IMG/VR virus record: IMGVR_UViG_3300009593_000022
Location: 1-55,113 of that record
Strand: one strand, 5' to 3'
Origin: a virus
DNA length: 55,113 bases
Below, in pieces: positions 36,736-55,113 of this stretch. A program made the position numbers and the translations under genes. Under the pieces are notes generated by a model. It had not been told where the DNA came from, did no database searches, and was given only the letters and a program-made list of their open reading frames with translations. Position 1 is the first letter of the stretch, and the number at the start of each line of letters is the position of its first letter.

Positions 36736-37301
36736 CTACTTTCACAAAATGGCCAAGTCCCAGATGGGTTTTATGGGTTTCTAACAGAGAAGAAGACCGA
36801 CTACTTGATAGAACAAGTTCTATTGAGATTATCAAATGCAATGACTATGAAGAATATGTTCATGAAGTTATGCAATGCGATATGGGTTCACCTTCTTATT
36901 TGGAACTTGTCAACGACCCTAAGTGGGGCAACGGAAACGAAGAAATACTTATTCCAAAGATAGATGCGTCAAGTGAAGAGTGGGCTATCGCTCAAGCAAA
37001 GTCCATGACTGAACTTGAAGAGTTTCGTGTTTGGAAAGAAAACAACGGCGAACTGCCAGACAAGGCAATCGATACAAAGACTGAAAAGGTCGACTCAATC
37101 TCCTTAGAATATTTGGAAGAGAGAGTCGAGAAAGAGGACATATTCAAGATGAAACTTGATATGTTCGAAAAAGATTTTGTTCGAAATGCAAACAGGGAAC
37201 AGAAGTCCGAACTTAGGAAGACGGATGACTTCTTTCAGTTGTCGTCCATTTACTTCCAGATGAAGGCAGCGGCGGCTCACGCTGATAATGCACCATCTTG
37301 A
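36732..37301 (+). CDS. 189-residue acidic helical protein, possible fibre/tail assembly factor
   Basis: The gene begins in ATGA overlap with the previous gene, so it is translationally coupled. The N-terminal half (about 1-70) contains KWPSPRWVLWV and a Tyr/Glu-rich region. The C-terminal half is charged and helical, with likely coiled-coil segments (LEYLEERVEKEDIFKMKLD and following). One Ala-rich tail ends the protein. Small acidic helical proteins at the end of fibre gene blocks are often assembly chaperones, but no sequence signature supports a specific one here. The last 89 bp overlap the convergent - strand gene at 37213-37917. Confidence 0.65.
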   Translation: MTTFTKWPSPRWVLWVSNREEDRLLDRTSSIEIIKCNDYEEYVHEVMQCDMGSPSYLELVNDPKWGNGNEEILIPKIDASSEEWAIAQAKSMTELEEFRVWKENNGELPDKAIDTKTEKVDSISLEYLEERVEKEDIFKMKLDMFEKDFVRNANREQKSELRKTDDFFQLSSIYFQMKAAAAHADNAPS

Positions 37302-37917
37302 TGTCTGGGTGAAACTCACCCATCCATAGATAGTCATTCTTATATCTTTCTGTCATCTTTGACATATAGGTATCGTCGCGTTCCATCTTCCATTGCGTAT
37401 GCCAATGGTCTGGGACAAACTTCATCTTCAAAGACTGAGATGTCCCTATCCTTCCCCTTACCATATCTTCAACAAAGTTCATTTCTCCGTTGACAGGACC
37501 AATAGTTATTCCTTGGTCGATATAGTAGGTTTGCCAAAATTCCGAATCTTGTCTAAAAGTTTCGTGAATATATTTCGTATCTTCTGGAAAAAATTTATAA
37601 AAACCTCCTGCAAATTTGTAAGTGCGTGCTGTGCCGTTATCTTGCCACCACCAATTTCGTGCAACAAGAAATTCACCTCGTTGAACAGGTTGTGAAAAAA
37701 GACTGGAATAATCGTTAAGGAACTCAATGTCAATGTCAATAAGGACCACAGGGCAGTCTTCTGATACGGAAAATGCTCGTAGCTTATTCCACTGAAGATG
37801 TATGCCAGGGTCCTCTTCACGAATCCATTCGATTGGTCCCAACTTGTTTTCAAGAGTACGTTCATAGTGAATGCCATATTTTTCTCCGATTCTTACAGCG
37901 TATATTTTGTAGTCCAT
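37213..37917 (-). CDS. Glycosyltransferase-like protein with DID motif
   Basis: This 234-residue protein is last in the - strand operon. The N-terminal half shows a GT-A-like arrangement: a short beta-alpha start, then WNKLRAFS and a hydrophobic strand ending in D61-I-D63 (VVLIDIDIEFLND), the usual metal/nucleotide-sugar DxD site. It continues with FLVARNWWWQD and a KFAGGFYKFFP strand, which parallel the other two glycosyltransferase-like proteins of this operon. No membrane segment is seen, so it should be cytosolic. Acceptor and sugar are unknown. It overlaps its upstream neighbour by 25 bp. Its 3' end overlaps the convergent + strand gene by 89 bp (TAA at 37213-37215), and the last 25 or so residues, Ser/Pro-rich, may be dispensable. 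Confidence 0.75.
   Translation of the reverse strand: MDYKIYAVRIGEKYGIHYERTLENKLGPIEWIREEDPGIHLQWNKLRAFSVSEDCPVVLIDIDIEFLNDYSSLFSQPVQRGEFLVARNWWWQDNGTARTYKFAGGFYKFFPEDTKYIHETFRQDSEFWQTYYIDQGITIGPVNGEMNFVEDMVRGRIGTSQSLKMKFVPDHWHTQWKMERDDTYMSKMTERYKNDYLWMGEFHPDIKMVHYQREPPLPSSGSKWTTTERSHPSS
37306..37322. terminator. Hairpin at the convergent junction, candidate weak terminator
   Basis: TGGGTGA (37306-37312) and TCACCCA (37316-37322) form a perfect 7-bp inverted repeat around a 3-base loop, 4 bases after the + operon stop codon. There is no T run on either strand, so it is not a canonical intrinsic terminator. It lies inside the codons of the - strand glycosyltransferase gene. It could attenuate + transcripts or be chance. 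Confidence 0.3.
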
Positions 37918-38414
37918 TCTGGTTTCTCTACATCATGATTTAATAAACATATTGGGTATGAGCGTATATTCTCATCCCAAAACCAAGACCAAGCAATTCT
38001 ATCATAGATTCTAAAATCTACTTCCCTATAAATGTATTCATCAATACCTCTTGTGTATTTGCTCCTATCCATTCCCAAGGATATATCTATTCTGTCACCC
38101 TTCCATGCCATGACTGATGAATTAAGTGGAGTATGATAGGGTTGTCTCCACCAAGCATACAACAAAGTAAAGTCATCTCTGACTACATCTATTGCATCTT
38201 TGATAACGACATCTAAATCGAAGTAGACGTAATTTTCGTCTTCTCTCCGACACTCCTGAAACATTTTCAGTTTATCGTAAACTGAGCCTTCTCCTCTTGT
38301 GATAACGTGAGTTCTGTCATATTTGAACTCAACGTTATGTAACTGATATTCAATGTCTGCAACTGCTTTGAGAGGATACTTGTCTCCAGTACAGACCATA
38401 ACTACAGTGGTCAT
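37893..38414 (-). CDS. Small glycosyltransferase-like protein with DLD motif
   Basis: This 173-residue protein opens with a strand (MTTVVMVCTGDKYPLKAV) as in phage glycosyltransferases. It has a YDKLKMFQ helix and then the DxD strand NYVYFDLDVVIKD (D66-L-D68). Later residues include FTLLYAWWRQPYHTPLNSS and VMAWKGD, the part that in relatives forms the acceptor or sugar pocket. It is short for a full GT-A enzyme, so it may have a reduced C-terminal lobe. It starts in ATGA overlap with the phosphoribosyltransferase gene. It is related to the products of 39170-39862 and, more weakly, 37213-37917. Confidence 0.75.
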   Translation of the reverse strand: MTTVVMVCTGDKYPLKAVADIEYQLHNVEFKYDRTHVITRGEGSVYDKLKMFQECRREDENYVYFDLDVVIKDAIDVVRDDFTLLYAWWRQPYHTPLNSSVMAWKGDRIDISLGMDRSKYTRGIDEYIYREVDFRIYDRIAWSWFWDENIRSYPICLLNHDVEKPEWTTKYTL

Positions 38415-38785
38415 GGCATTCTGAACAACGCGTTTACCCAGAGAGGTGGTTTAGAACGGGCAAAGACACACCAACCAAAGTATTCCTTGTCCTTAAAATT
38501 CGCTTCAACAAAATCGTGGAAACTTCCTCCAGTTGTAAGAACATCATCACAAATGAGATAAGGGTCATCTGCATTTTGTGTTGAATAGTCGTTCAACCAT
38601 CTTTCAAGTTTGTTTCCTCCTCTAGGTATTCCTATCGCGGCTTGAAACGGCCTGTCTTCATATTCTACAATCATTTTAGCTAGAGTCCACCATTCCGAAT
38701 CGCTAATAGCGTCACATTCTATTTTCCAGTTTAGTTGTTTTCCTGAGTGACCAATGAAATCAACACTTTGAAATAAGTCCATCAT
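38411..38785 (-). CDS. Phosphoribosyltransferase-like protein
   Basis: This 124-residue protein has the type I phosphoribosyltransferase signature. The PRPP-binding strand and loop is YLICDDVLTTGGSF, with the acidic pair D80-D81 followed by T84-T85-G86. An upstream pyrophosphate-loop-like IGIPRGG lies at residues 52-57. Such proteins transfer or release phosphoribosyl groups at nucleobases, or act as regulators. The protein is shorter than most catalytic family members (about 150-200 residues) and its hood domain is minimal, so the base specificity cannot be read. The gene overlaps both neighbours by 4 bp. Together with the PP-loop ATPase and kinase-like genes it hints at nucleotide chemistry in this operon. 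Confidence 0.85.
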   Translation of the reverse strand: MMDLFQSVDFIGHSGKQLNWKIECDAISDSEWWTLAKMIVEYEDRPFQAAIGIPRGGNKLERWLNDYSTQNADDPYLICDDVLTTGGSFHDFVEANFKDKEYFGWCVFARSKPPLWVNALFRMP

Positions 38786-39207
38786 ATTCCTTCTATTCCA
38801 AGGTTATTACCATAAATATATGTATGCGTATCATCGTGATACTTGTCGTATAAATTGTACAACTTGTTTTGAGTTACCAGTTGTGCATGGTTGTGTATGG
38901 GGTTACAGTCGCCGTTATGTTCTTTAGCATCACCTCTGAGGATGAATTCTCCGTCATGAACTTGGCCAATAGGGAAGGTCTTTTCACAGTTCCAATGCAC
39001 GACACAACCACGAAGTTCTACCTCATCGAAGATAGCGTCCTTGCAGATAACATCATCTCTGTCTTTATATTTAATATCATAGTTGATATTGTGAACAACG
39101 ATGCCCAGCGAACGAAGCTGGTCAATTAAGTCGAAGTTTTCACACGCGACAAACGTTAGTTCATCGTGCTCAGTCAACCATGAATAAATCCGTTTCGTGG
39201 AGTTCAT
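38782..39207 (-). CDS. Minimal Rossmann/methyltransferase-like protein
   Basis: This 141-residue protein has no catalytic signature I can assign with certainty. Strand VVHWNCEKTFPIG (residues 69-81), the preceding KDAIFDEVELRG, and the following GEFILRGDA and NGDCNPIHNHAQLV align in order with the second half of the 42873-43643 protein (HVIINTSGEHMPHI, TIVMSNDY, GHTHCVSDMMEL). That protein looks like a class I methyltransferase. The N-terminal glycine-rich cofactor loop seen there is missing or reduced here, so this may be a non-catalytic partner or a degenerate paralogue. It overlaps the upstream gene by 38 bp and the downstream gene by 4 bp. Confidence 0.55.
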   Translation of the reverse strand: MNSTKRIYSWLTEHDELTFVACENFDLIDQLRSLGIVVHNINYDIKYKDRDDVICKDAIFDEVELRGCVVHWNCEKTFPIGQVHDGEFILRGDAKEHNGDCNPIHNHAQLVTQNKLYNLYDKYHDDTHTYIYGNNLGIEGI

Positions 39208-39862
39208 AGTGTTTTTTGTTTACAGAAATATTATTGTTGTAAAGATGAGAGGTATTAAATAGGGTCACTTTACCTCTTTGTCCATTTACATTATAATTAG
39301 AGAATAAACCCTCGCCCCAATAACTTAATCTATTATTACGGGCATGTTGGTAAAAAAGATACTTGTCGAGACTCTTATAAGTCCAAGCTATTTTTTCCCA
39401 ATTCTTTTCTGTATACTCACGAAGCCACGTCGCGCAACCTTTATCCCAAAAAACAAATGAACTATTGACATGACACGATGACCCTCTTCCATAGGGTTTC
39501 AAACTCATCGTTTCGAAGTCGTTCCAATAGTTCCAGATAAAGGTTATAGTTTTATGAGGCCGAGATACCAATTTCGTTATGTCTTCATTGATGTGGATAT
39601 CTAAATCCAACCATCCGTTTATCTCTGCTTCATCTTTGTCAATCAGCATCAGTTTTTCATACGTAAAGACCCTATCCGTGTCGTATGGTCTCAACTCTTG
39701 TATGTCACGATGCTCGATATCTTTTGTTAGTCCTTTCGTATCATCTGTCCAAACTCTCAGTATGAAGTCTGTGTTCAGATGTTTTCCTAGTAGTTTATAT
39801 AGACGATTAACATATTCAGCATTATATTTCTCCCCCCACTTCAGGGCATTTATGTGCACCAT
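39170..39862 (-). CDS. Glycosyltransferase-like protein with DLD motif
   Basis: This 230-residue protein starts with a short helix-forming region (WGEKYNAEYVNRLYKLLGKH), then a beta strand FILRVWTDD. A YEKLMLID helix and the metal-site strand INGWLDLDIHIN (D86-L-D88) follow. After it, FIWNYWNDF, CHVNSSFVFWDKG and helical segments match the order of motifs in the 173-residue glycosyltransferase-like protein of 37893-38414. This supports a nucleotide-sugar transferase of GT-A type in the cytoplasm. The donor and acceptor are unknown. It overlaps the upstream radical SAM gene by 13 bp and the downstream gene by 38 bp. Confidence 0.75.
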   Translation of the reverse strand: MVHINALKWGEKYNAEYVNRLYKLLGKHLNTDFILRVWTDDTKGLTKDIEHRDIQELRPYDTDRVFTYEKLMLIDKDEAEINGWLDLDIHINEDITKLVSRPHKTITFIWNYWNDFETMSLKPYGRGSSCHVNSSFVFWDKGCATWLREYTEKNWEKIAWTYKSLDKYLFYQHARNNRLSYWGEGLFSNYNVNGQRGKVTLFNTSHLYNNNISVNKKHYELHETDLFMVD

Positions 39863-40959
39863 AGCCGTTCCGTTGATGTGGATTTCCGCTTTGGTATCTT
39901 TGAGTCAGCGCTCGAGACGCAAGTGTCTGTGACACATGGCATGGGTTGTTCAAAGAGGGAAAAACCTGTTTCCAGACTCCCAAGTGGAACATCACTACAA
40001 GAATAAGAACGCTTGACAGAACCATCAGGCTCACGTATGATAATGGACCGATAGCCTGACGAGCATGTCCACCCTTTAAACTTGTTAAAACCGAACGCAT
40101 TAAACCTTTCCGCTTGGTCGAGTCTCCACGTTTTGCCATTTTGATCCTTCATCTCTATTTGATAATGTTGTCCATTCTCTGCTATCCGATGCTGGAATTT
40201 TGATTTAGGTCTACGCACTTTACGTTTCTGTTCTGTAAAATCTTGTTGAGGCATTCCGTTATGAAGAACCTCAAACATTCTGGGGGTGTAACCACTAACA
40301 ACGTGGCTAGCAGTAGGGTCGCTCTGAGGCTTGAGCGTAACATTGATGCCCCTAGAATGAAAGTAGTTAGCGTCTTCCCAGAGTTCGTCAAATCTTTCTG
40401 GGACCATAACTTGGTTAATTGTAACTTGTACATCTTGAGTCTGGAGATAATCCAACTTATCAGCAAACTCCATTCGTTTAGTATTGTCATTTACGTGCTC
40501 CTTATGATAGGAAGCTGTAATAGAGACTCTATGAAAGTCTCTTGTTAGGTTTGTGTATTCCTCCCACCATTTCAACTTACGAGATATATTCGAAGTCAAG
40601 TGAGTGGATGTCCAATTGCATGACATAATATCTTCCCGCAAACTGTCAAGTAAAGGAACAAGGGTAGGAACAACGCTAGGTTCTCCCCCCGAAAAAGAAA
40701 AGTGAAACGAGTTGAATCCCCTCTCTCTTGCTTGTTTTTTAATCTCTTCCAGCGTAAGTAAAACGACATCTTCACTTCTCCAATCTTTCTTTTTGGTTGA
40801 TGCGTAAGGCCAACAATACGAACACGAATAGTTACAGTATCGGCCCAGCAGCCAAGATACGTTGAAGAGGTCTCGATGAAGCATTGTCCATTGCCCCACC
40901 ATCTCGATGTCTTCCCAAGGAATTTTTGTAAAGTCAGTTTGTGAAAATTTTATTGCCAT
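39850..40959 (-). CDS. Radical SAM protein A with C-terminal auxiliary cysteine module
   Basis: This 369-residue protein carries the radical SAM cluster motif C42-x3-C46-x2-C49 (RYCNYSCSYCWPY) and the SAM-binding FSGGEPS at 89-95. Residues 294-357 form a second cysteine-rich module. It begins FKGWTCSSGYRS (C299), continues with an EPDGSVKRSYSC strand pair (C321), and ends with C342-x4-C347-x-S349 before DSKIPK. The same layout appears in radical SAM C and in the edge-truncated gene at 54565. There the last position is Cys, here it is Ser349. The module probably binds an auxiliary Fe-S cluster, as SPASM-type modules do in peptide- and sugar-modifying radical SAM enzymes. The substrate is unknown. 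It overlaps the upstream gene by 10 bp. Confidence 0.9.
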   Translation of the reverse strand: MAIKFSQTDFTKIPWEDIEMVGQWTMLHRDLFNVSWLLGRYCNYSCSYCWPYASTKKKDWRSEDVVLLTLEEIKKQARERGFNSFHFSFSGGEPSVVPTLVPLLDSLREDIMSCNWTSTHLTSNISRKLKWWEEYTNLTRDFHRVSITASYHKEHVNDNTKRMEFADKLDYLQTQDVQVTINQVMVPERFDELWEDANYFHSRGINVTLKPQSDPTASHVVSGYTPRMFEVLHNGMPQQDFTEQKRKVRRPKSKFQHRIAENGQHYQIEMKDQNGKTWRLDQAERFNAFGFNKFKGWTCSSGYRSIIIREPDGSVKRSYSCSDVPLGSLETGFSLFEQPMPCVTDTCVSSADSKIPKRKSTSTERLWCT

Positions 40960-41999
40960 TGTGCGGTAAAAGGGTCATATCCATCATTGCATTTTAATGC
41001 GCAAGTTTCTAGTCTATCTACTCTAGACCAAGAATCTCTCACTTTAGTAAAGAAGTCGCCTTCAACTATCTCTTGAATACTCCGAACCTTCTTTACATTT
41101 ATCTTATCATAGTCACCAATCATGTTATGAACATCGCCTTCTTTTTCCTTACGCCACCATTTGTAAGGTTGTCCAGCCAACCAGCAACAAGGGAATACAT
41201 TCCCCTCTGATGATATATAGATTTCTGACTTATCTTCCGCTTTACATTTTATACTACATTTCTCCAAGTAGTTCTTAAAAGTTCCATGTTTCTCCTCTAA
41301 TTCCTTGAACTTGGGTAACTCTTTGTTCTGATACTTAGGATGAGTGGGCTGTTCAAGATACTGCTTTCTCTCCCCTTTCTTATTTATTGCTTGATGTCCT
41401 GTCTTGGTTTCAAGGGAAGCAGTATTTATGTATCGTCCACTTTTCTTTACGATGAACTCTTTTACTCCTAAAGCTCGTGCCCATCCTCGTGCAATGTCAA
41501 CTTGATGTTCGTTATGTTTGAAGACAAGGAAGGTCCACTTTGCCAGTCCGCCTGCATCACAGAAAGAAACGATATTGTCCTCGACCTTTTCCCATTTGAC
41601 ACCTTGACGATAGAGATGGTTGGTATCCTCTAGTCCATCAACGGAAAAGTTTACCTCACTAAACTGGGCAAGTTCTTCCCACCATTTCTGGTCTCTAGCA
41701 CCTCCGTTTGTTGTGGTCATTATTCTAAGTCGAGGATTCTTGTCCTTCATCCATTCGTAGATATGAAGAAGGTCATCACAGAAGATAGGGTCTCCGTGGT
41801 TACCACAGGAGTAGAAGAAATCTAATCTTTTTATGAATTCAAAATCGATAGAGTTGGTGAACTCTCGAAAGCTCCACGTTGCATTAGACAAATGATGGTT
41901 AACTTTACCTCCATTTTCGTTCCTGTCACACATTGGACAGGATGCATTACAACCTTGAGTTGGTTCGAAGTGAACCTGCTTTATGTTACGATACTCCAT
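40950..41999 (-). CDS. Radical SAM/SPASM-like protein B
   Basis: This 349-residue protein carries radical SAM motif C17-x3-C21-x2-C24 in FEPTQGCNASCPMCDRN. The usual GGEP segment is replaced by YSCGNHGDPI (C65), as in proteins F and H of the same operon. The C-terminal SPASM-like part has C-x3-C followed by C-x18-CC (around EIYISSEGNVFPCCWLAG) and a final C-x3-C (CALKCNDG). A family with this architecture usually acts on peptides or on small polar substrates through auxiliary clusters. A Lys/Gln-rich insert (about 195-240) lies between the barrel and the SPASM part. ATG 41999 overlaps the upstream gene by 19 bp, with no strong ribosome site, so translation is probably coupled. Confidence 0.9.
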   Translation of the reverse strand: MEYRNIKQVHFEPTQGCNASCPMCDRNENGGKVNHHLSNATWSFREFTNSIDFEFIKRLDFFYSCGNHGDPIFCDDLLHIYEWMKDKNPRLRIMTTTNGGARDQKWWEELAQFSEVNFSVDGLEDTNHLYRQGVKWEKVEDNIVSFCDAGGLAKWTFLVFKHNEHQVDIARGWARALGVKEFIVKKSGRYINTASLETKTGHQAINKKGERKQYLEQPTHPKYQNKELPKFKELEEKHGTFKNYLEKCSIKCKAEDKSEIYISSEGNVFPCCWLAGQPYKWWRKEKEGDVHNMIGDYDKINVKKVRSIQEIVEGDFFTKVRDSWSRVDRLETCALKCNDGYDPFTAQWQ

Positions 42000-42892
42000 A
42001 TGTCTTTTGGGTAGTCCATGATTTCTTTAGTGCCTGGCGTCCACAAAGGAGTAACAGTCAGGTCTATGTCGATGTAATTTCTAAACTGTTTTATAAACTG
42101 TTTAACTTGAGGCACTTTTTCTGGGTGTAACATGCATTTGAGTCGAACTGTCTTTTTGCCTTTACCACTTCCTCTGGCGTCAAGGAATCGTTTAAGTTTT
42201 TGTATGTAAGTATCCCGAACAAATTCAAAGTGAATAGAAATAGCGAGGTGACTATAAACATTGAGATGATTGAGATACTCAGCCGACTTGGTTCCATTAG
42301 TGCTCGTAGAAATTTGTGAATAAGGATTATTCCCTTTCAACCACTTGACAAAGTCAATGTAGTTTTTGTTTAATGTTGGTTCTCCACCACTTATATTTAT
42401 GGTGCGCACATTTCGGGGGTTTACTGTCCTCCAAGCTTGTTTATATTTTTCTATATCTATTGACTCTGTCGAGGAATGGTTTTCAGGTTCACAGTATGAA
42501 CATTCAAAGTTACATTTCTTTTCTGTGTAGAAGTTAACATTGACTTTGTTCTCGTTGTCAATGGCTCGTATCTTCTGTCCCTGTTTGTATGGTTCTATTT
42601 TGGCAGGTGCGTGTTTGATGAGTTTGAGTAGGTCTTCATTTGCTCCTTTTCTCATTTCAATATCATTACCACAGAAACAATTGTCATTCGGACATATTTG
42701 ACTTTTGATGGGAGTGAAGTCATCAATACTTTGTTCTTCAGGACTTCCGCAGACTGTCTGTCTGACTGTCCATTTTTCTACATCTATGACATACTGGGAT
42801 GGTTCACAAATCCAACCCTTAAAATTAGTTACCTGTTTTAGTTGACTGACTGTAGCAGTCTTCATCCCTTGGTCAGTCAGTACCTTCAGCAT
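41981..42892 (-). CDS. Radical SAM protein C with N-terminal auxiliary cysteine module
   Basis: I place the start at ATG 42892, because GGGAGG lies four bases upstream. A TTG at 42904 would add four residues. The protein is 303 residues. Residues 24-80 form the auxiliary cysteine module: NFKGWIC (C29), C48 in TVCG, then C67-x4-C72-x-C74 (CPNDNCFCGNDIEMRKG). The radical SAM motif follows at C127-x3-C131-x2-C134 (KKCNFECSYCEPEN), with ISGGEPTLN at 167-175. In relatives A and the edge gene, the same module sits after the barrel. The C-terminus ends with a short polar tail and no SPASM region. Substrate unknown. Confidence 0.88.
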   Translation of the reverse strand: MLKVLTDQGMKTATVSQLKQVTNFKGWICEPSQYVIDVEKWTVRQTVCGSPEEQSIDDFTPIKSQICPNDNCFCGNDIEMRKGANEDLLKLIKHAPAKIEPYKQGQKIRAIDNENKVNVNFYTEKKCNFECSYCEPENHSSTESIDIEKYKQAWRTVNPRNVRTINISGGEPTLNKNYIDFVKWLKGNNPYSQISTSTNGTKSAEYLNHLNVYSHLAISIHFEFVRDTYIQKLKRFLDARGSGKGKKTVRLKCMLHPEKVPQVKQFIKQFRNYIDIDLTVTPLWTPGTKEIMDYPKDIWSIVT

Positions 42893-43643
42893 GCATCCTC
42901 CCAATCACCATAAACCTATTATAAGTTTGCATAGACCTAGTACCTGTGTAATAAGTCTTGCCCAGTTCTTGTTGACGCATCAGTTCCATCATATCTGAAA
43001 CACAATGAGTGTGTCCGTTTCCATCAAAATAATCATTTGACATAACGATAGTAAGAGGGTTTCCCTTAAAGAAGTTTCTTCTTTGGGATATGTGTGGCAT
43101 ATGTTCACCAGAGGTATTTATAATAACATGCCGTCTTCTGACATCAGACCTGCTGAACCAGTCTCCGAATTGATGCACAGGATATTTAGGTTCGAACTTA
43201 TTTTTATATTGAGCCATGACTGGATGGCAGAGTTCGTCTTTGTCGTAACAGTCTATCTGTTTTATGTTTGGAAAGGCGTAGTCGATATATTCTATCAACG
43301 GCCAACCAAACCAAGAACCAACTAACTCAATGTGACAGGGTCTTGTATAGTCAAACTTAGAACCGAGATTTGCTATCTCTTCAACCATCCATAGTTTAGA
43401 TTCGTGTTGTTGAGATGAAAGGGAGTCTGCGTGTGACTGGACATATGCTTCTGAGAGGTTGTTTTCAATCCATCTTCCAACTTCTGAATACTTTGTCGCT
43501 CTCTGAATCTTGTTGACTGTCGCTTGTTCTTCTCGCATTTTTGAGAGAAGAGCCTCGTTTCGCCGATAGTCAATTATCTCCAGTACAGTTCTCTTTTCTT
43601 CATCTTTACCTTTGTGAAGTAATCGTTGAAGTTCTGATTCCAT
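42873..43643 (-). CDS. Methyltransferase-like protein (class I fold)
   Basis: This 256-residue protein has a helical N-terminal region (about 1-95), then a Rossmann-type core. IELVGSWFGWPLIEY (106-119) fits the cofactor-binding strand and glycine loop. An IDCYDKD strand (130-136) gives the acidic ribose-binding residue. RHVIINTSGEHMPHI (171-185) and TIVMSNDYFDGNGHTHCVS (198-216) fit strands 4 and 5 with the active-site region. Related proteins in phages are annotated as SAM-dependent methyltransferases, but I see no substrate signature. The 70-bp overlap with the upstream radical SAM gene is long, and an internal ATG exists at residue 36, so the first 35 residues are less certain. The minimal protein at 38782-39207 is a relative. 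Confidence 0.65.
   Translation of the reverse strand: MESELQRLLHKGKDEEKRTVLEIIDYRRNEALLSKMREEQATVNKIQRATKYSEVGRWIENNLSEAYVQSHADSLSSQQHESKLWMVEEIANLGSKFDYTRPCHIELVGSWFGWPLIEYIDYAFPNIKQIDCYDKDELCHPVMAQYKNKFEPKYPVHQFGDWFSRSDVRRRHVIINTSGEHMPHISQRRNFFKGNPLTIVMSNDYFDGNGHTHCVSDMMELMRQQELGKTYYTGTRSMQTYNRFMVIGRMHAEGTD
43115..43122 (-). promoter_or_regulatory. TATAAATA, possible internal late promoter on - strand
   Basis: The - strand reads TATAAATA, an exact match to the T4 late promoter core, inside the methyltransferase-like gene. It lies about 220 bp upstream of radical SAM C and all genes to 37213. It could give extra late expression of the downstream half of the operon. An 8-base AT-rich match can occur by chance in a sequence of this size, so support is limited. 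Confidence 0.3.
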
Positions 43644-47999: not shown

Positions 48000-48969
48000 G
48001 TAAGGGGGGATACCCAGTTAAGTTACTCATTAGTCGCTCAAAGAGGTCGCCTCTGAACTTGTCTTCCATGCAGTATTTAGAAAGGGCATCTTCCATCAAT
48101 GGATTCTGCGATATTATATATTGTTTGACATCCACAGGTAAGTATTGAAGGTTTAACCATTTGGGACCAAGTAGATAGTCAGTTGACCAATGCTCAGAAT
48201 TAAAATCAAACTGTTCTATCGTCTGTTCAAAGAAGGGAGCGTTAATGGTATGAAAGACGAAGTGCGGTTTAGCATCGAACTCGTAACGGAAACGATTCAT
48301 GTTTCTTTCGATACGACTCCACTTGGTTCCTTCTCTTATGTATTCAGCAAGTTCTCCATATCCATCAATACTGACAGAGATAACCAGATTCTTAAACTCA
48401 TTGAGAAGTTTACGAACATAGTCGTTAGGCCAGATAGAACCATTTGTCACCAACCAGAGTTCGATATTGTGTCTGGGTACTGACTCCATTATCGCTATGT
48501 TTCTCTTGTCGAGGAATGGTTCACCTCCAAGAAGTTTCAGTCTGTCAAGATTTTCATAGAGGGCTGGGTTGGGTAGTTCGTTGTCTATCGTGTCACCAAA
48601 CTGGTTTGAGAACCTATCGTTGCAGGTAACACATTTCATGTTGCATCTGTTACTCGTTGAAATTTCTAAGTAACGGAGACCAAGAGGGGCGTCTGGATAC
48701 CAACCAGAAAACTGTTGCCGATAGGATACGACATTCTTTTTGTATAGACTATTTTTAGCAGAATGTTTTTCGTCTAGTTTGCATTTCTCACAACCTTCAA
48801 CTTCATATCCTTTCTCCATGTCTGAACGAATGAGATTCATTTCATCAGAAAGAAAAGCTTCTTCTATGTTTTTATATTTTCCTTCCAGAGGATACTTGAA
48901 CATACAACAAGGACGAAACTCTCCATTGGGATTTTGAACCATATGGGTCCAAGGTGCACTACACTTCAT
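47959..48969 (-). CDS. Twitch-type radical SAM protein G
   Basis: This 336-residue protein begins almost directly with the twitch domain: C3 in KCSAPWTHM, then C21-C22 (FRPCCMFK) and C60-x2-C63 (GCEKCKLDE). The radical SAM motif is C109-x3-C113-x2-C116 (SNRCNMKCVTCND), followed by LLGGEPFLDKRN. SIDGYGELAEYIREG near residue 200 is a strand-loop shared with proteins E and I. The start ATG 48969 overlaps the kinase-like gene by 11 bp. The short C-terminal part ends near a Tyr/Leu-rich helix. No substrate can be read from the sequence. Confidence 0.9.
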   Translation of the reverse strand: MKCSAPWTHMVQNPNGEFRPCCMFKYPLEGKYKNIEEAFLSDEMNLIRSDMEKGYEVEGCEKCKLDEKHSAKNSLYKKNVVSYRQQFSGWYPDAPLGLRYLEISTSNRCNMKCVTCNDRFSNQFGDTIDNELPNPALYENLDRLKLLGGEPFLDKRNIAIMESVPRHNIELWLVTNGSIWPNDYVRKLLNEFKNLVISVSIDGYGELAEYIREGTKWSRIERNMNRFRYEFDAKPHFVFHTINAPFFEQTIEQFDFNSEHWSTDYLLGPKWLNLQYLPVDVKQYIISQNPLMEDALSKYCMEDKFRGDLFERLMSNLTGYPPLLDDYVELLYGRVA

Positions 48970-49426
48970 ATTCTGTATAAATGTTTTCTAAGGAGTTTCT
49001 AGGTATCCAACCCATTGAGTCTATGTCTATCAGATATGGTTTTCCATTCCAGATACGAATGTTGTCCATCTTGAGGTCAGTATGCATGAATACCTTTTCT
49101 TTTCCTTCACTAAACTCAATACAGTCTGGGATGACTTTCAACGAAATCAGTTTTATGGTCTTGTTGATAAGGCGAGAGTTCTTTTCGTCAATGAGTACAG
49201 GCGGGAACTGTTCTCCTCCAATATGGTCGTATTCTAAGGTCAGATAGTTATCTGTCCATTCTCCATTATGATTCCATGTATAATCATGCAATGTAGGAAG
49301 ATATTCTTGCCCGTATATTTTACGAAAGCTCATATACGAAATGGGGTCGAAACGAAAGTCGTCATCGTATTTTACAGTCTTGACCCATCGGTCTCCGACT
49401 CTAGTCATGTTCACAGTTTCTATCAT
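48959..49426 (-). CDS. Minimal kinase-fold protein
   Basis: This 155-residue protein has the catalytic segment of a protein-kinase-like or aminoglycoside phosphotransferase fold. The catalytic loop is VFMHTDLKMDNIRI with H115, D117 and N122. PYLIDIDSMGW follows with D134-x-D136 as the metal-binding motif. An upstream WVKTVKY strand (14-20) may supply the ATP-contacting lysine. The protein is much shorter than usual (250-300 residues), and the N-lobe and the region after the DxD are minimal. It could be a small phosphotransferase acting on a metabolite or modified substrate of this pathway, or a regulatory remnant. ATGA overlap with the upstream gene indicates coupling. Confidence 0.75.
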   Translation of the reverse strand: MIETVNMTRVGDRWVKTVKYDDDFRFDPISYMSFRKIYGQEYLPTLHDYTWNHNGEWTDNYLTLEYDHIGGEQFPPVLIDEKNSRLINKTIKLISLKVIPDCIEFSEGKEKVFMHTDLKMDNIRIWNGKPYLIDIDSMGWIPRNSLENIYTEYEV

Positions 49427-50385
49427 TCTATAATCTTTCTTACCTCCCTTTTTCCGTTGTCACCACAGGTTAGGTAACATCTGGGTAGGTGTAATGGATG
49501 GTTCTTATTCCAAGATTTTTCTAAAGTCTCAGTATACCACGGGTCAGAGAGTATGTCAAGTAGACCTCTGTTTTTCAAGGAAAAGTCTACATTCAGTTTT
49601 TCAATATAATGTTTAGTGTAGGAGCCGACTGACTCATCGTGGATATGACAACAAGGAAAAACTTTCCCAGTTGCAGTTATGAAGATTTCGTCTTTCTCTT
49701 TGTGTCTACATCGGATATCGGGCTTGTCGTAGTTACCTCTATACGCCCTGCTCTGTACATCTTCATACTTTTCTGTGTCGATGGACTTTGCTGTTTCTGA
49801 CCCGAACTTAACATGATCAGCATTGTTCCTCCAGCTTTCTCGTGTTGCGAAAGATAGTCCCGCTTTTCTGGCGAGAGTTCTTGCTTCATCGACTTCATGT
49901 CTATTGTAATCGAACTTGATGAATTGCCATATTCCTTTACCTCCGTTGTCGGTGTAGGACTTGACATTTCCCAAGACCTTATCCAATGATACGCCTTCTC
50001 TATAGTCATTCCTAGTCGCTCCATCAATGCTCCAATGGACATTCATTCTCCCTTCTGACATTTTTGACATCAAACCCATTTCTGCCCACCACTTGGTTGT
50101 CCTCAAACCTCCGTTTGTGGATATCTCCAAGTCTCTTATCTTTTTTTCGAATAGGAAGAACCAAAGTATTTCGTAGAGTTCTGGGTTAGCGATAGGGTCG
50201 CCTAAAACTCCACAAGCTTTTATTTTGGTGTCTGTGAGGTCAACATCGGAGAACCATTCTTCACAGTTCTCCAAAGTGATATTCGTCTTTTCGTAAAAGA
50301 CCTTTTCATTATCTAACATTGTTCTCTTACAACCACTGCAACGGGCGTTGCAATGGGAAGACAACTCAACTTCTATTATTCTCAA
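49423..50385 (-). CDS. Radical SAM/SPASM-like protein H
   Basis: This 320-residue protein has a predicted TTG start at 50385 that overlaps the previous stop (TTGA), with no clear ribosome site. The radical SAM motif is C12-x3-C16-x2-C19 (SSHCNARCSGCKRT). KACGVLGDPIANPE replaces the GGEP region. C-x18-CC (EIFITATGKVFPCCHIHD) and C-x3-C (RCYLTCGDN) form the SPASM-like C-terminus with the same spacing as B and F. The short N-terminal lead before the first cysteine is typical of this subfamily. It likely acts on a substrate related to that of F, to which it is most similar (ISTNGG/IATSGS, HWSIDG/HFGIDG, GIWQFIKFDYNRHEVDEA/AVWQYIAFDFNEHQIEAA). The substrate is not identifiable. Confidence 0.9.
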   Translation of the reverse strand: MRIIEVELSSHCNARCSGCKRTMLDNEKVFYEKTNITLENCEEWFSDVDLTDTKIKACGVLGDPIANPELYEILWFFLFEKKIRDLEISTNGGLRTTKWWAEMGLMSKMSEGRMNVHWSIDGATRNDYREGVSLDKVLGNVKSYTDNGGKGIWQFIKFDYNRHEVDEARTLARKAGLSFATRESWRNNADHVKFGSETAKSIDTEKYEDVQSRAYRGNYDKPDIRCRHKEKDEIFITATGKVFPCCHIHDESVGSYTKHYIEKLNVDFSLKNRGLLDILSDPWYTETLEKSWNKNHPLHLPRCYLTCGDNGKREVRKIIE

Positions 50386-51551
50386 ATATTATGTTTAACA
50401 AAAGGTATGTGTGGTTTGTTTTGACTGCCTGGTTCCTTGAACTCTTTTTGACTGTCTTGGTAGTTACTTATTCCAAGATTGTATTCTTCTTGTCCTTCCC
50501 AAGCTTCAACTACAGTAGTATGGTCATCCTCACCCGCGTCAACAAAACGAGATGCTATTTCAGCTCTTTCTCCTGTCTCTTCTGTGTAAGTGCAAATAAC
50601 GCCTGGATATGCAGTTCCGCGAGTTATGTCCATAACCTTGTCCCATTCTTTTCCGAACTCATTCCAAGAAAACCCAAGTTTGAAGATATCATGAACACTC
50701 TTATGACTTTCAAAGTTCATAACTCTGTAACCATTTCCAGAGTCATAGTCTTGACGGAAATAAATATGTTTCTCAGGGTCGCCAGATGGGTGTAGTAGAT
50801 TAGGTCCGTATTCTCCATAGACCTTTTTCCAGTCCTGTTCAAATCTCTGGTCGTAATGAATGGAAATAATACGAGGTTGCATCATCCACCAGTTGTAGTC
50901 GTCTTTTCTACACCAGTTATCTCTGTTAAGATAATCGACATGGCACCAAGTGAAAAACTTTCTAACGGGCGACGAGTGCTTATTTGAACCTGAGTCGTTC
51001 ATATCAATTGTCATCATACAAGGTTCTTTATCCCATTCCCAGAAGTTTCCAGCAGTAAAGATTTCTAAATGTCTTTTTTCTCTTTCTTCGCCTTCATCTA
51101 AAGAGTAATACCAATCAAGGTAAGGTCTAGCGTCAATATTGTAACCTGATGTATATGCAAAGTTCTGTTGTTTTACAACGTGGTTCAGTTCTGCATGAAG
51201 AGTTAGTTCAGGTGCTTTAACATTCTCAAAATGTCTAGCTTTTTGGGCGGGGTGGATAAACTCTTTTACATCATCAGCATCGCAATGTTGTGAATTGTAG
51301 TAGTCAAGAGCCCTCTTAGCTTCAGGTGTGCACGCTTCATAATGGAGTTCTTTTTCCCAGAGGAGAGCCAAAGCTCCTACAGCCTTGTCATCTTTCATTA
51401 CAATCATTTGAGTATTTGATACCCAACTAGCTTGTAGACAGTCCATATGATTTTGAGCAGGAATATCCCATTCCCAGTTCGCCATACTTGTTATTCTACA
51501 TCTTTTAGTTTGGAAATGACAGGCTTGAACTTCTGCCCAATCTTTAAACAT
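50382..51551 (-). CDS. Tryptophan- and histidine-rich orphan protein in radical SAM operon
   Basis: This 389-residue protein is well expressed by context: GGAGACAGA lies just before ATG 51551, and it has an 8-bp overlap with the upstream gene and a 4-bp one with the downstream gene. It lacks CxxxCxxC and any nucleotide-binding loop I can name. Trp and His are abundant (for example FWEWDKEP, WCHVDYLNRDNWC, DDYNWWMMQPR), and there are several Asp/Glu-rich segments. Residues 50-75 (TQMIVMKDDKAVGALALLW) resemble an acetyltransferase beta-hairpin, but the rest does not continue this way. It may be a substrate-binding or metal-binding partner for the surrounding enzymes. It could also be an oxygenase-like enzyme. 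Neither idea is supported by a diagnostic motif. Confidence 0.7.
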   Translation of the reverse strand: MFKDWAEVQACHFQTKRCRITSMANWEWDIPAQNHMDCLQASWVSNTQMIVMKDDKAVGALALLWEKELHYEACTPEAKRALDYYNSQHCDADDVKEFIHPAQKARHFENVKAPELTLHAELNHVVKQQNFAYTSGYNIDARPYLDWYYSLDEGEEREKRHLEIFTAGNFWEWDKEPCMMTIDMNDSGSNKHSSPVRKFFTWCHVDYLNRDNWCRKDDYNWWMMQPRIISIHYDQRFEQDWKKVYGEYGPNLLHPSGDPEKHIYFRQDYDSGNGYRVMNFESHKSVHDIFKLGFSWNEFGKEWDKVMDITRGTAYPGVICTYTEETGERAEIASRFVDAGEDDHTTVVEAWEGQEEYNLGISNYQDSQKEFKEPGSQNKPHIPFVKHNI

Positions 51552-52812
51552 TCTGTCTCCTTTCGGTCAAGTGGTCCTCCATGAGTCGGTCATAGACTTC
51601 AACAATTTCGTCAGGCATCGTGTAACGCCTTGATTCGATAAAATCGGAAAACTTGAAGAAGTTGTCTACGTGCTTAGGGTCATAGTCGTTAGTCATGAAA
51701 TGAAGTCTAACCCTATCTTCATACAGTTCTCCTTTTATTCTATTTAGTATCCACTCCTTTGTTTTGCGAGGGAAATATGCCGAATTAAGATACTCAGGTC
51801 TATGTAAGAAAGATAAGTCGAAGTGACCACAGTTATCTTTTATTCTTTCGAACTGGTTGAGATAGTCATAGGTCTTCTGAATGTCAAACATATTCATTGC
51901 ATGAGCGACATAATGATATCGAAACTTTGAGTCTGGGTTTCTATGGTTCGCGATGTATTCTATCCACTTCTGAAGGTTTCGCGTGAAACGTTTCATTTTG
52001 AGTCCATAACGAACATACTCTCCAACCTCATCTATTCCGTCAATGGAGAACATTAGCAATATTTTTTCTGCTCTGTCAAGTTTCTCTGTCCATGCTTTTG
52101 TAGGTGGAATTGAACCATTCGAAACAATGATGATATGAGCCTTATCTATTTCTATTCGTTCCAGTATTTCGTGATACCTTCTGTCTATCATCGGTTCACC
52201 TCCGATACAACGAATCGTCCGAACTCTCGACCAGTCAACATCGGCATACTCAAACGAATCTATAAGAGGTTCTCCTGTGTCTGGTTTGATAACACGAGCA
52301 AAAGAAGCTACATGCGCTCCTACACGCGGTATTATTTTATCAAGGTCATATTCCTCATCGTGCCAAAGAGAACTCCTGTCCACTCCGCAGTCTACACATT
52401 TGAAGTTACACTTATTGGATATCGCAAGGTCAATATCTCGTATCTCAGGGTTGTTGATAAGGTCGACTGCATCTTCCTTCCACATTTCGTTGAGATGTTC
52501 ACGGAAAGAAATGTTCTCCAGTAAGGTAGAGGTATTGAGGTCTTTCTCATCATTTCTAGATAACCACTCTTTATTGTAACAGGTATCACATTCTGATACT
52601 TGTTCTCCTCGCAAGAATCTCTGGCGTAACTCATTCCATTCCTTGCCATGAAATGCGTCGTTCAACTTGCGAGGGGTATGACCATCAATGATGTTTGGTT
52701 TGAAAATACAACAAGGTTGAGGAACGCCTTCTGGTGTATTCTGTATGTGCACCCAAGGAGCAATACAGAAGTTTCCATCGTTCATTAGTTTGTCGACTTC
52801 ATCTCTTTCCAT
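51544..52812 (-). CDS. Twitch-type radical SAM protein I
   Basis: This 422-residue protein has twitch cysteines C16-x17-C34-C35 (NFCIAPWVHI and PQPCCIFK) and C75-x2-C78 (SECDTCYNKE). The radical SAM motif is C135-x3-C139-x2-C142 (SNKCNFKCVDCGVD), with RCIGGEPMIDRRY afterward. SIDGIDEVGEYVRYG follows the SIDG strand-loop of G and E. A linker of about 55 residues between the twitch and barrel domains is longer than in G. The C-terminal region is charged and helical. ATG 52812 has GGAG four bases upstream and overlaps the phosphoesterase gene by 28 bp. The reaction is unknown. Confidence 0.9.
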   Translation of the reverse strand: MERDEVDKLMNDGNFCIAPWVHIQNTPEGVPQPCCIFKPNIIDGHTPRKLNDAFHGKEWNELRQRFLRGEQVSECDTCYNKEWLSRNDEKDLNTSTLLENISFREHLNEMWKEDAVDLINNPEIRDIDLAISNKCNFKCVDCGVDRSSLWHDEEYDLDKIIPRVGAHVASFARVIKPDTGEPLIDSFEYADVDWSRVRTIRCIGGEPMIDRRYHEILERIEIDKAHIIIVSNGSIPPTKAWTEKLDRAEKILLMFSIDGIDEVGEYVRYGLKMKRFTRNLQKWIEYIANHRNPDSKFRYHYVAHAMNMFDIQKTYDYLNQFERIKDNCGHFDLSFLHRPEYLNSAYFPRKTKEWILNRIKGELYEDRVRLHFMTNDYDPKHVDNFFKFSDFIESRRYTMPDEIVEVYDRLMEDHLTERRQNV

Positions 52813-53582
52813 AGTTCTCCAATCTTTTCCTGTTCACTTTTCGGTGCTGATCTCCAGTAACGAATAGATTCTGTGATAGCATCCAAAGCTTTCTCTTCAT
52901 ACTCCTCATCCCATCCCAAATAGATTTTGAGTCGGAGTTTCAGGTTCTCCTCAGATACTCCAAGTATGTCTTGGTTTCCAAGGTCTAGAATATGTTTAGG
53001 GAGTACGTTTGTGTAGTCCATCCAATACTTAGTATGCAGTTCGACAAACTTTATCTCTCCCTGTTTGATCACGTGAAACCCTTTTGGAGTTTTCGACTGA
53101 CCAATGTCATACGCCCAGGCTGAACCAAATCGACTTTCCCTCCTATTGTGAAAGTGACCACAAAAGACTCCTCGTTCTTCAGACGCATGAGCAAACCTGT
53201 ACTTGATCTCTTGGTCCTCTGTGAAGAGAGTATGAAATGCCTTCCCAAATCCTTCAGCAGGTAGGAACTGACATTCGTCCATTACTGTGTTCACAGAAAT
53301 AGAAATGACTTTTGGATGAAAGTCTGTGAAAGATCCGTCCATTCCATAGTCATGGTTTCCAGCCAGCATGTAAACTCTCTCGTCTTGAATCTCCTCAAAG
53401 AAGGCATAGTTCTTCCTATCAGCAGACTGAAAGACATCGCCCATGTGAACGATAGTCTTTATGTTTCGCTTTCTGATGTTCTTGAAGAACTCTTTTGTTA
53501 GTCTGTTCTTCTCCTCTTCAGGGAAAGACGGACTGTCATAGTGTGTGTCAGAAATTACTGCAAACTTTTCAAAATGGAACAT
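52785..53582 (-). CDS. Calcineurin-like metallophosphoesterase, Mre11/gp47-like
   Basis: This 265-residue protein has the standard two-metal phosphoesterase motifs in order: ISDTH (D12, H14), HMGDVF (D49), AGNHD (N76, H77), RFAHAS (H131) and CGHFH (H143, H145). After the last motif, AYDIGQSKTPKGFHVI resembles the strand pattern of Mre11 and T4 gp47 nucleases, in which a capping segment precedes a helical tail. T4 gp47 is about 340 residues and works with gp46, and this protein is shorter. No gp46-like ATPase is in the window. It could be the phage recombination nuclease subunit displaced into this operon, or a phosphatase serving the modification pathway. GAGGAG precedes the ATG at 53582. It overlaps both neighbours by 28 bp. 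Confidence 0.85.
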   Translation of the reverse strand: MFHFEKFAVISDTHYDSPSFPEEEKNRLTKEFFKNIRKRNIKTIVHMGDVFQSADRKNYAFFEEIQDERVYMLAGNHDYGMDGSFTDFHPKVISISVNTVMDECQFLPAEGFGKAFHTLFTEDQEIKYRFAHASEERGVFCGHFHNRRESRFGSAWAYDIGQSKTPKGFHVIKQGEIKFVELHTKYWMDYTNVLPKHILDLGNQDILGVSEENLKLRLKIYLGWDEEYEEKALDAITESIRYWRSAPKSEQEKIGELWKEMKSTN

Positions 53583-54619
53583 ATCTCCTCGTTTGGGAAC
53601 TCGTTATTGAGTAAAATGTCCATGTGTTTCATAGCCTCTAAAGCGCCTGTCTGAGGTTCTTCAGGAAACATTATGGTGTTATTTATGTGCTCATCATCTG
53701 TCAACCATCGTTGACGATACTCCAAAGGTATTTGAGTATGTCTTAGATAGTCTGGAACAAACAAGGGGTAAACCTTAGTAGGATATCCCAAGTCCAAAAC
53801 TTGTTGAATATGATTAACGTTCATGACAGAGAGAGTGCAGTTAATACTAACAGGTCCCTGTTCTTCCCATCGTTTCATATTCTCTTTAACCTTCTTCCAC
53901 TTAGCAGGATATCTCATAGACTCAAAGAGGTCTCCTGTCGCGTCAATAGAAAGTTCGATGTTAACAGACTTAAACTCTGGTAAAGAGTATAACACAGTTC
54001 CATTCGTATTACAAGAGAAATCTATCTGTTTTGTAGGAATATTATCAAAAAACCAGTCGATGTTCTTGGCGAGAAATGGTTCTCCTCCAGAAAGTCTGAC
54101 TCTGGTAAGATGAGAGAGGTCTGTATTTTCTAAGACTCTCTTCATCGCTACTGCGTAGTTTCCAGTTCCTATGTCGTTATAATGGTCTTTGTCAAACTTT
54201 TGTAAACCTGAGACATCCAACCTGTCCCAACGTGAAGAAATGCCTGGCCGACAAGAACGACAAGACAAATTACAATGATAGTCCAAACCAATATGAAGTC
54301 TCTGCAACTTCTTAGCTTTGGTAAGCTGTTTGTTGAGTCTTCCGCGAGTCGATTGTGGTTGTCCATCTTTAGCTAAGTCTTTTTTAAGAAATTCTAGTTT
54401 CTGACATTGGTTACATTCCTGTGGCCATTGTCCTTCCGCAAACTGGTCTTCCATTTGGAAGTAGAGATAGGACGAATTGATATTGTCCAGAGTTGCGATA
54501 TTGTGAATGTTTAGTTCGTCCCATCGAGTGGTATGTGCCATATCCGTAATACAACACGGAACTGCTATTCCCCTGTTATTGGTAATGGCGACTGAGCCGT
54601 TGATTGCTCTGCACTCCAA
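53555..54619 (-). CDS. Twitch-type radical SAM protein J
   Basis: This 354-residue protein starts at TTG 54619, supported by a perfect AAGGAGG four bases upstream (54624-54630). The twitch domain is C3-x18-C22-C23 (GIAVPCCITD) and C69-x2-C72 (QECNQCQKLE). The radical SAM motif is C116-x3-C120-x2-C123 (YHCNLSCRSCRPG), with RLSGGEPFLAKN following. The C-terminus is short and helical, with no extra cysteine module. Overlap with the upstream gene is 55 bp. It is the most proline- and glycine-poor of the twitch proteins. Its substrate is unknown. Confidence 0.9.
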   Translation of the reverse strand: MECRAINGSVAITNNRGIAVPCCITDMAHTTRWDELNIHNIATLDNINSSYLYFQMEDQFAEGQWPQECNQCQKLEFLKKDLAKDGQPQSTRGRLNKQLTKAKKLQRLHIGLDYHCNLSCRSCRPGISSRWDRLDVSGLQKFDKDHYNDIGTGNYAVAMKRVLENTDLSHLTRVRLSGGEPFLAKNIDWFFDNIPTKQIDFSCNTNGTVLYSLPEFKSVNIELSIDATGDLFESMRYPAKWKKVKENMKRWEEQGPVSINCTLSVMNVNHIQQVLDLGYPTKVYPLFVPDYLRHTQIPLEYRQRWLTDDEHINNTIMFPEEPQTGALEAMKHMDILLNNEFPNEEICSILKSLQ

Positions 54620-55113
54620 TATGCCTCCTTTGTCAGAAAATGTTCATGGTCACCTGCCTTGACCACTTCTGGGGTAAGTCCATCCATCCATTTTCCCATC
54701 AAAGGTTCTACTGGTCCATCTGTCTTGTCGATACAGAGACCACAACCACAATGGGTTTTTGGACAGGTTACGATTGGGAGCTTTTTTTCGTAGAGTTTTT
54801 CGGCGAGACGATCAACAATTTCTCCAAATCGACTGGCAAAGCCAAGTGGCTTAACTTCTCCGTCCAAGTTAACTCCACAGGTTTGATGAGACCATACCCT
54901 ATCAAACTCACTATTGATAAAGAGGAAATAATAATTAACCCAGCATCGAAACCCAATAAAGTTGTTACTGGAAACGTAATTGCAAGAAGAACCATCCATC
55001 GAGAAAGTTCTTCCTCCACAGCAGGGCCTGCCCAAGGACTTGTTGCGTTCTCCAAAATGGTCTTTGAAGTATTGCTGTTGTTCAGTATTGTATTCATGTG
55101 TATACCCAAATAA
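54565..55113 (-). CDS. C-terminal part of a probable radical SAM protein K, cut by window edge
   Basis: The frame is open from the last base of the window to a TAG at 54565, so 182 residues of a gene that starts outside are visible. Numbering from the edge, FIGFRC (C57) is followed by C79 (HQTCG), a DGEVKPLG strand, and C117-x4-C122-x-C124 (CPKTHCGCG) plus C127. C31-C32 and C44 lie upstream. This matches the auxiliary cysteine module of A and C closely (C-x18 to x21-C, then C-x4-C-x-C). The protein is therefore very probably a radical SAM enzyme with its barrel outside the window. The C-terminal 50 residues are charged. The radical SAM motif itself is not visible. Confidence 0.8.
   Translation of the reverse strand, partial: LFGYTHEYNTEQQQYFKDHFGERNKSLGRPCCGGRTFSMDGSSCNYVSSNNFIGFRCWVNYYFLFINSEFDRVWSHQTCGVNLDGEVKPLGFASRFGEIVDRLAEKLYEKKLPIVTCPKTHCGCGLCIDKTDGPVEPLMGKWMDGLTPEVVKAGDHEHFLTKEAYWSAEQSTAQSPLPITGE

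Follow-up and report, generated by a model that had tools for sequence, protein, structure and literature searches.

The IMG/VR virus record IMGVR_UViG_3300009593_000022, analysed here over its whole length of 55,113 nucleotides (the window), carries on its minus strand an operon without gaps (37213-55113) of 21 overlapping genes, and the radical S-adenosylmethionine (radical SAM) part of this operon (39850-55113) holds ten complete radical SAM genes and, at the window edge, the probable C-terminal half of one more. Our tentative reading of this island, as we call it and its relatives, is that it encodes one co-inherited, modular radical-tailoring pathway acting at the host-recognition region of T4-type marine phages. 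The core shared by phages and some Bdellovibrionota is r1, a gene of the r2/r8 type and r5, often with mt (Table 1).

In radical SAM enzymes, a [4Fe-4S] cluster at a CxxxCxxC motif cleaves S-adenosylmethionine, and a 5'-deoxyadenosyl radical abstracts hydrogen from an unreactive substrate carbon; auxiliary clusters of the SPASM/twitch type bind substrate or accept an electron. A preliminary description of the window, made from the letters alone, had counted ten complete genes, and every claimed open reading frame (ORF) was present with an intact CxxxCxxC (10/10; r1-r10). A PF04055 profile search of the window recovered nine genes at E<=1e-3, five of them above the curated cut-off, and the tenth, r10, matched NF033640 (N_Twi_rSAM) at 1.7e-44. 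The eleventh gene, predicted at the edge, is supported by homologues. The e11 ORF itself has no CxxxCxxC, and its radical SAM core would lie past the window edge; because the full-length homologues (~380-430 residues) bear the motif ('RRCSYACSYCPPH'), e11, which aligns with their C-terminal half and has GRPCCGGR...HQTCGVN...TCPKTxCGCGxC in common with them, is taken as the C-terminal half of a radical SAM enzyme. The reported overlaps of 4-83 base pairs between neighbours held when measured on mechanical starts, but the 83-base-pair figure is probably inflated because r5 homologues start about 24-34 residues later.

The enzymes differ in their auxiliary domains. Class A (r4, r5, r7, r9 and r10) has an N-terminal C-x16/18-C...CxxC domain ahead of the core; r4, r5, r7 and r9 exceed the curated NF033640 cut-off of 170 bits, and r10 (152.5 bits) is below it. 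Class B (r2, r6 and r8) has a C-terminal SPASM domain whose spacing is similar to that of the Class A domain. Against the SPASM profile r8 scored over the cut-off, r2 just under and r6 under, with the same Cys spacing in all three; r7 also passes this cut-off, but N-terminally. In BLAST comparisons the N-terminus of r10 weakly matched the C-termini of r2 and r6, suggesting an auxiliary domain that may have switched sides of the core. Class C (r1, r3 and e11), recognised by inspection, has a different auxiliary domain with F-x-G-W/F-x-C, placed at the C-terminus of r1 and e11 and at the N-terminus of r3. Islands also include stand-alone SPASM-type proteins (f29, about 119 residues; e.g., L114:13284-13643).

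A scan of IMG/VR with r5 gave 130 viral stretches with a relative, and 80 loci, 51-74% identical, were kept. In whole records, PF04055 matches reached 23 (242,646 bases), 22 (328,149), 20 (58,963) and 19 (60,133), counts that are lower bounds because the same search yields nine for the window. T4 gp23 was present in 7/22 records tested, including every record over 160 kb, which confirmed T4-type phages. One relative, G003, repeats the 3' end of the window (mt, r3, r2, r1, gt1, h141, gt2, gt3, then f13/f14 on the opposite strand) at 65-81% protein identity. In the 20 segments where five or more genes could be assigned, 73 adjacent pairs were as in the window; 35 were expected, and none of 1000 shuffles gave more than 55. 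Since the loci for this order test had been chosen through r5, r1 was used as an independent anchor. It had at least 543 confirmed viral relatives (55-81% identity over the aligned set); among the best 80 of these, three or more radical SAM genes were found in every full-length locus (55/55), with r5-group genes in 47/55 and r8-group genes in 41/55. Under stricter thresholds, r5 was also present in 76/122 r1 segments, short segments included.

In 42 non-redundant segments, the distances for r1, r2 and r5 were correlated (Mantel r 0.48-0.73, higher than in any of 999 permutations), a correlation to which vertical descent of the phages contributes. Compared with G003, the proportion of synonymous change (pS 0.71-0.88) was saturated in r1, r2, r3, mt, r5, gt1 and gt2, and nonsynonymous change was low (pN 0.14-0.20); for most pairs we give no dN/dS ratio, since dS has reached saturation. 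Long co-inheritance of what would be a single pathway is supported by the order of the genes, by their correlated distances and by purifying selection. The preliminary description had held that genes scattered singly or decayed in relatives would make one pathway unlikely; given the order, the co-occurrence around r1, the correlated distances and the constraint, neither was the case. A-type iron-sulphur carrier genes (PF01521) occur in five island records (G008, G012, G016, G020 and G023), fitting a high iron-sulphur demand.

Copies of the core were also found on chromosomes of some predatory-type bacteria. A bacterial scan with r5 gave 17 loci; by inspection, some are phage contigs binned with bacteria, but several are on long contigs that also carry housekeeping genes. 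A profile search with r1 in two Bdellovibrionota classes was positive in 6/129 and 15/144 genomes (about 8%), with a single match in 18 of the 21 positive genomes; the other three have two, which in G032 come from one gene split across contigs. The usual neighbours of r1 in these genomes are r5 and an r2/r8-type gene, and mt and f1 are often present as well. One Bdellovibrionota contig with housekeeping genes (L250:7061-19513) holds r5, an f1-mt fusion, r1, f31/f30 (phage structural proteins) and further radical SAM genes; its core follows pheS/pheT and adjoins f31, f30, f21 and f1, the gene set that flanks phage islands. Because the contig ends there, this core is possibly a phage remnant, or it may be a domesticated module.

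Over 68 clusters, each with at least four radical SAM genes, 568/885 genes were radical SAM. The wider islands also encode a tryptophan halogenase (205 bits), a carbamoyltransferase, B12-type radical SAM, TauD, PhyH, FkbM, nitroreductase, AMP-binding, aldo-keto reductase, aminotransferase and Asp/Asn hydroxylase proteins, an amidinotransferase of the StrB inosamine-phosphate family (E 1e-96), stand-alone SPASM domains and, on the sugar side, UDP-sugar dehydrogenases, GT8 and a cytidylyltransferase-like gene. This predicted gene mix resembles natural-product tailoring and would be divided between amino-acid and sugar chemistry. Apart from the core, the window itself has few accessory genes.

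The plus strand ahead of the operon encodes T4-type gp25, gp6 and a wedge subunit, in agreement with the T4-like assignment made earlier; gp6 is closest to those of Pelagibacter phage HTVC008M and Methylophilales phage Melnitz (37-39%). Baseplate wedge genes are followed by f14/f13, gt1-gt3 and the radical SAM operon, the arrangement of a host-recognition cluster. In two phage clades the islands have as neighbours a fibre-like gene with its small partner, f14/f13 in one and f31/f30 in the other; f14 and f31 were considered as one family and rejected, as they have no similarity. A family match for f14 was sought and none was found. Two other features stand out in the window: a 3765-residue plus-strand ORF in the baseplate region (9735-21032), very large for a T4-type tail gene, and a fibre protein with many imperfect 'DVDxxxPxxGQVLKWDGTxW'-type repeats (29234-32479).

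Among the accessory genes, the labels in the preliminary description fared unevenly. The phosphoesterase has a Metallophos match over the cut-off, and structure prediction gave methyltransferase and glycosyltransferase folds: mt (predicted local distance difference test score, pLDDT, 90.7) matched O-methyltransferase, GidB and TehB in Foldseek, and gt1 (pLDDT 83) matched GTA/GTB, LgtC and LARGE1, both at E ~1e-6. The PP-loop label found support below the cut-off, and the kinase and phosphoribosyltransferase labels draw on motifs and sub-threshold matches only. In pp, SGGxD and SC..CxxCxxCxE are invariant across 25 relatives, and profile matches were to asparagine synthetase (3e-5) and Cap9 (2e-4). 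A peptide-pattern scan gave no relatives of orph or pp; those of pp were found later in r5 loci. No match to orph was found in Pfam, PHROGs, NCBIfam, phages, viral contigs or island ORFs, and none of significance in the PDB; searches for a relative of pe among island ORFs and for a PDB relative of h141 likewise found none.

Table 1. Genes of the radical SAM operon and the adjoining fibre-like pair, with window coordinates.
Gene	Coordinates	Strand	Description
f14	35767..36735	+	fibre-like protein adjoining island, candidate scaffold; 15 members, all beside islands
f13	36732..37301	+	small partner gene of f14; 15 members, same position
gt3	37213..37917	-	DxD protein, probable glycosyltransferase; conserved in 13 segments
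gt2	37893..38414	-	DxD protein, probable glycosyltransferase; conserved DLD motif
prt	38411..38785	-	probable phosphoribosyltransferase (CDDVLTTGG); PRTase-CE E 0.019, below cut-off
h141	38782..39207	-	conserved protein paired with gt1; family in 18 segments, invariant residues
gt1	39170..39862	-	GT-A fold glycosyltransferase (predicted structure)
r1	39850..40959	-	radical SAM, 4-Cys C-terminal auxiliary domain, core member; PF04055 47 bits
r2	40950..41999	-	radical SAM, C-terminal SPASM, core member; PF04055 33 bits, over cut-off
r3	41981..42904	-	radical SAM, N-terminal auxiliary domain of e11/r1 type; PF04055 41 bits, over cut-off
mt	42873..43643	-	class I methyltransferase fold, long N-terminal helix, core member
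r4	43574..44782	-	N-twitch radical SAM; NF033640 201 bits; PF04055 over cut-off
r5	44770..46263	-	N-twitch radical SAM, near-universal island marker; NF033640 375.7 bits
pp	46181..47026	-	PP-loop ATPase, QueC-like zinc tail; SGGADS
r6	46998..47999	-	radical SAM, C-terminal SPASM; PF04055 2e-4, SPASM 0.03; homologous to r8, r2
r7	47959..48969	-	N-twitch radical SAM; NF033640 196.6 bits, over cut-off
kin	48959..49426	-	possible kinase-fold protein (HxDxxxxN); weak CotS-like match, E 0.005 only
r8	49423..50385	-	radical SAM, C-terminal SPASM 22.9 bits, over cut-off; PF04055 2.2e-5
orph	50382..51551	-	389-residue ORFan mid-operon, rich in Trp and acidic residues
r9	51544..52812	-	N-twitch radical SAM; NF033640 213 bits and PF04055, both over cut-off
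pe	52785..53582	-	calcineurin-like metallophosphoesterase; PF12850 45.5 bits, over cut-off
r10	53555..54619	-	radical SAM, N-terminal SPASM/twitch; NF033640 below cut-off; CNLSCRSC
e11	54565..55113	-	C-terminal half of eleventh radical SAM, 8-Cys auxiliary domain, truncated by window edge

Radical SAM genes make up eleven of the 21 genes in the operon, and their different orthogroups would place different changes on one common scaffold, for which a fibre protein, a surface glycan or a diffusible product are the candidates. The mt protein may methylate this scaffold, gt1-gt3 may attach sugars, and in larger islands the halogenase, amidino-/carbamoyl-transferase and oxygenase genes could contribute further groups. 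QueC-family enzymes couple a nucleobase to protein (PMC11996544, PMC13279940), which makes it plausible that pp would form an ATP-driven amide-type bond; this role is limited by the score of pp against QueC (PF06508; E 0.0037, 17.2 bits), which is under the curated cut-off of 22. In the least certain step, the scaffold would be a polypeptide belonging to a distal fibre or adhesin of the phage itself, and the island would chemically diversify the receptor-binding surface. Most of the known substrates of SPASM enzymes are peptides or proteins. Together with these substrates, a fibre-protein scaffold is favoured by position and by late-type promoters: the T4-late-type motif ATAAATA lies within 120 nucleotides upstream of 14/55 island runs compared with 4.4 in shuffles (P about 8e-5), and ahead of r5 in six related records, which suggests that some islands may be expressed late. 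The full form of this reading, which we regard as rather unlikely to hold in all its parts, is that marine T4-type phages and some Bdellovibrionota have a hitherto unrecognised radical SAM pathway that chemically rewrites receptor-binding adhesins, the core making a basic modification and variable tailoring genes diversifying it; this would be the chemical equivalent of the sequence variation of fibre tips.

Several observations weigh against a fibre or adhesin pathway. The late motif does not single out islands, because ATAAATA is similarly enriched before other operons. No precursor peptide with a variable core and no protease was identified, nor a recognition element (RRE) domain of ribosomally synthesised and post-translationally modified peptides (RiPPs), for which no specific search was made. 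UDP-sugar dehydrogenases in islands fit glycans equally, and by inspection the cellular copies adjoin GT2-type and acyltransferase-like genes, which fits glycans too. As a universal substrate f31 was rejected; it is present in only 1/21 core-positive Bdellovibrionota genomes and, being absent from the other 20, is not required. The claim in the preliminary description of one pathway for a complex product is supported in part, as to a single co-inherited pathway.

A glycan scaffold is favoured by the glycosyltransferases and by the cellular neighbourhood, and a somewhat unlikely explanation is that the island remodels the host envelope, building or editing an unusual sugar that gt1-gt3 put on lipopolysaccharide or O-antigen, so as to block superinfection or alter receptors. 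The GT-A fold of gt1, the GT8, UDP-sugar dehydrogenase and cytidylyltransferase-like genes of the islands and the GT2-like genes close to the cellular copies are all in keeping with it, as are the inosamine-phosphate amidinotransferase family and the carbamoyltransferase, both known in sugar/aminocyclitol chemistry; a change of the O-chain has been proposed for glycosyltransferases of host-recognition clusters (PMC7029224). However, a complete nucleotide-sugar pathway was not found in the window, the tryptophan halogenase and Asp/Asn hydroxylases indicate amino acids, and islands border fibre-like genes and have late-type promoters.

It is improbable that the island makes a diffusible natural product (a RiPP-like peptide or an amino-acid derivative) released at infection or lysis, for example against competitors. 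The enzyme mix is like that of biosynthetic clusters, and a 74-residue protein, f3, lies near r2-type radical SAM genes in 28 loci (e.g., L090:8620-8844); no other recurrent small protein was noted near radical SAM genes. However, a precursor would have a variable core, whereas f3 is conserved along its full length; it is also absent from the window, and no exporter or protease was noted. We also found f3 inside proteins of 259-354 residues.

That the island is a loose collection of unrelated cargo in a hypervariable region is very unlikely. Island content is strongly variable and, in a comparison with island ORFs, orph, kin, prt and pe were private to the window, which fits such a collection; the core orthogroups, their order, selection and correlated distances, and the presence of the same core in cellular genomes, argue the other way. 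Modification of nucleic acids or nucleotides (7-deazaguanine-like DNA modification, viperin-like nucleotides or tRNA), to which the QueC-like pp, the phosphoribosyltransferase-like gene and the weak similarity of r3, r1 and r7 to the viperin profile might point, is most improbable, as QueD (PTPS) is missing from 8/13 island records (one of them the 167-kb G005, which has 16-18 radical SAM genes) and distant from islands in the other 5/13, and the viperin matches span the common core only, far under the NCBIfam cut-off. Accordingly, 7-deazaguanine DNA modification was rejected on the lack of linkage of QueD to islands (13 records, several of them fragments; FolE and DpdA were not searched), and viperin (pVip; best ~42 bits against a cut-off of 180) and other defence systems on core-level similarity only.

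The preliminary description knew of no characterised phage system with so many radical SAM enzymes. On the literature, rarity was rejected: phages with many such genes had already been published, though neither report characterised them. For the T4-like marine contig TARA_ERS488813_N000010, 12 radical SAM genes were reported (Nishimura 2017, PMC5332604); this contig is like the island in its phage type, its very many radical SAM genes and the iron-sulphur assembly genes alongside; however, it was published as a count, without order, core or function, and is compared here by description. Host-recognition clusters of pelagimyophages hold radical SAM cassettes (Zaragoza-Solas 2020, PMC7029224) that likewise lie beside tail-fibre genes, with glycosyltransferases, but that paper mentions them as cassettes and describes neither enzyme families nor a core or cellular copies. 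The Vibrio schizotequatroviruses KVP40 and K566 have several twitch-type radical SAM genes, those of KVP40 near a QueC-like gene; unlike the island, these number three to five at ~25% identity, lie beside nucleotide metabolism rather than fibre genes and come without r1, e11 or gt1 orthologues. Both phages are cultivable (KVP40 cluster, L009:21499-25162; K566 cluster, L010:14708-22447).

Among enzyme families, NF033640 includes r4, r5, r7 and r9 over its cut-off, but it describes one enzyme type and has no assigned substrate. Radical SAM/SPASM peptide maturases and RiPP clusters share with the island SPASM/twitch auxiliary clusters and tailoring enzymes, whereas the number of radical SAM genes in the island is far above what is usual for them. 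Cap9/QatC, which act in protein deazaguanylation (PMC11996544, PMC13279940), resemble pp in the PP-loop, the C-terminal zinc cysteines and an ATP-driven amide-type bond, but pp has no QueC match over the cut-off (E 0.004) and deazaguanine genes are unlinked. In the literature searched, we found no paper assigning function to these phage radical SAM sets, and none joining phage, tail fibre, radical SAM and post-translational modification. The new elements are the co-inherited core, the scale on which it occurs, its copies in cellular genomes and the chemistry associated with it. A collection of 50,697 phage records gave no match to r1, e11, f14 or gt1 at E<=1e-5, and because this collection has no r1, e11 or gt1 orthologues, work on isolates would have missed the island.

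If our reading is true, lytic phages carry unusually dense, selected and co-inherited radical SAM sets with an unseen product, which would provide substrates for the widespread N-twitch family NF033640 and a large uncultivated source of enzymes that functionalise C-H bonds. The minimal cellular core makes the problem testable with few genes, and the pathway would add an extra chemical layer to phage-host recognition.

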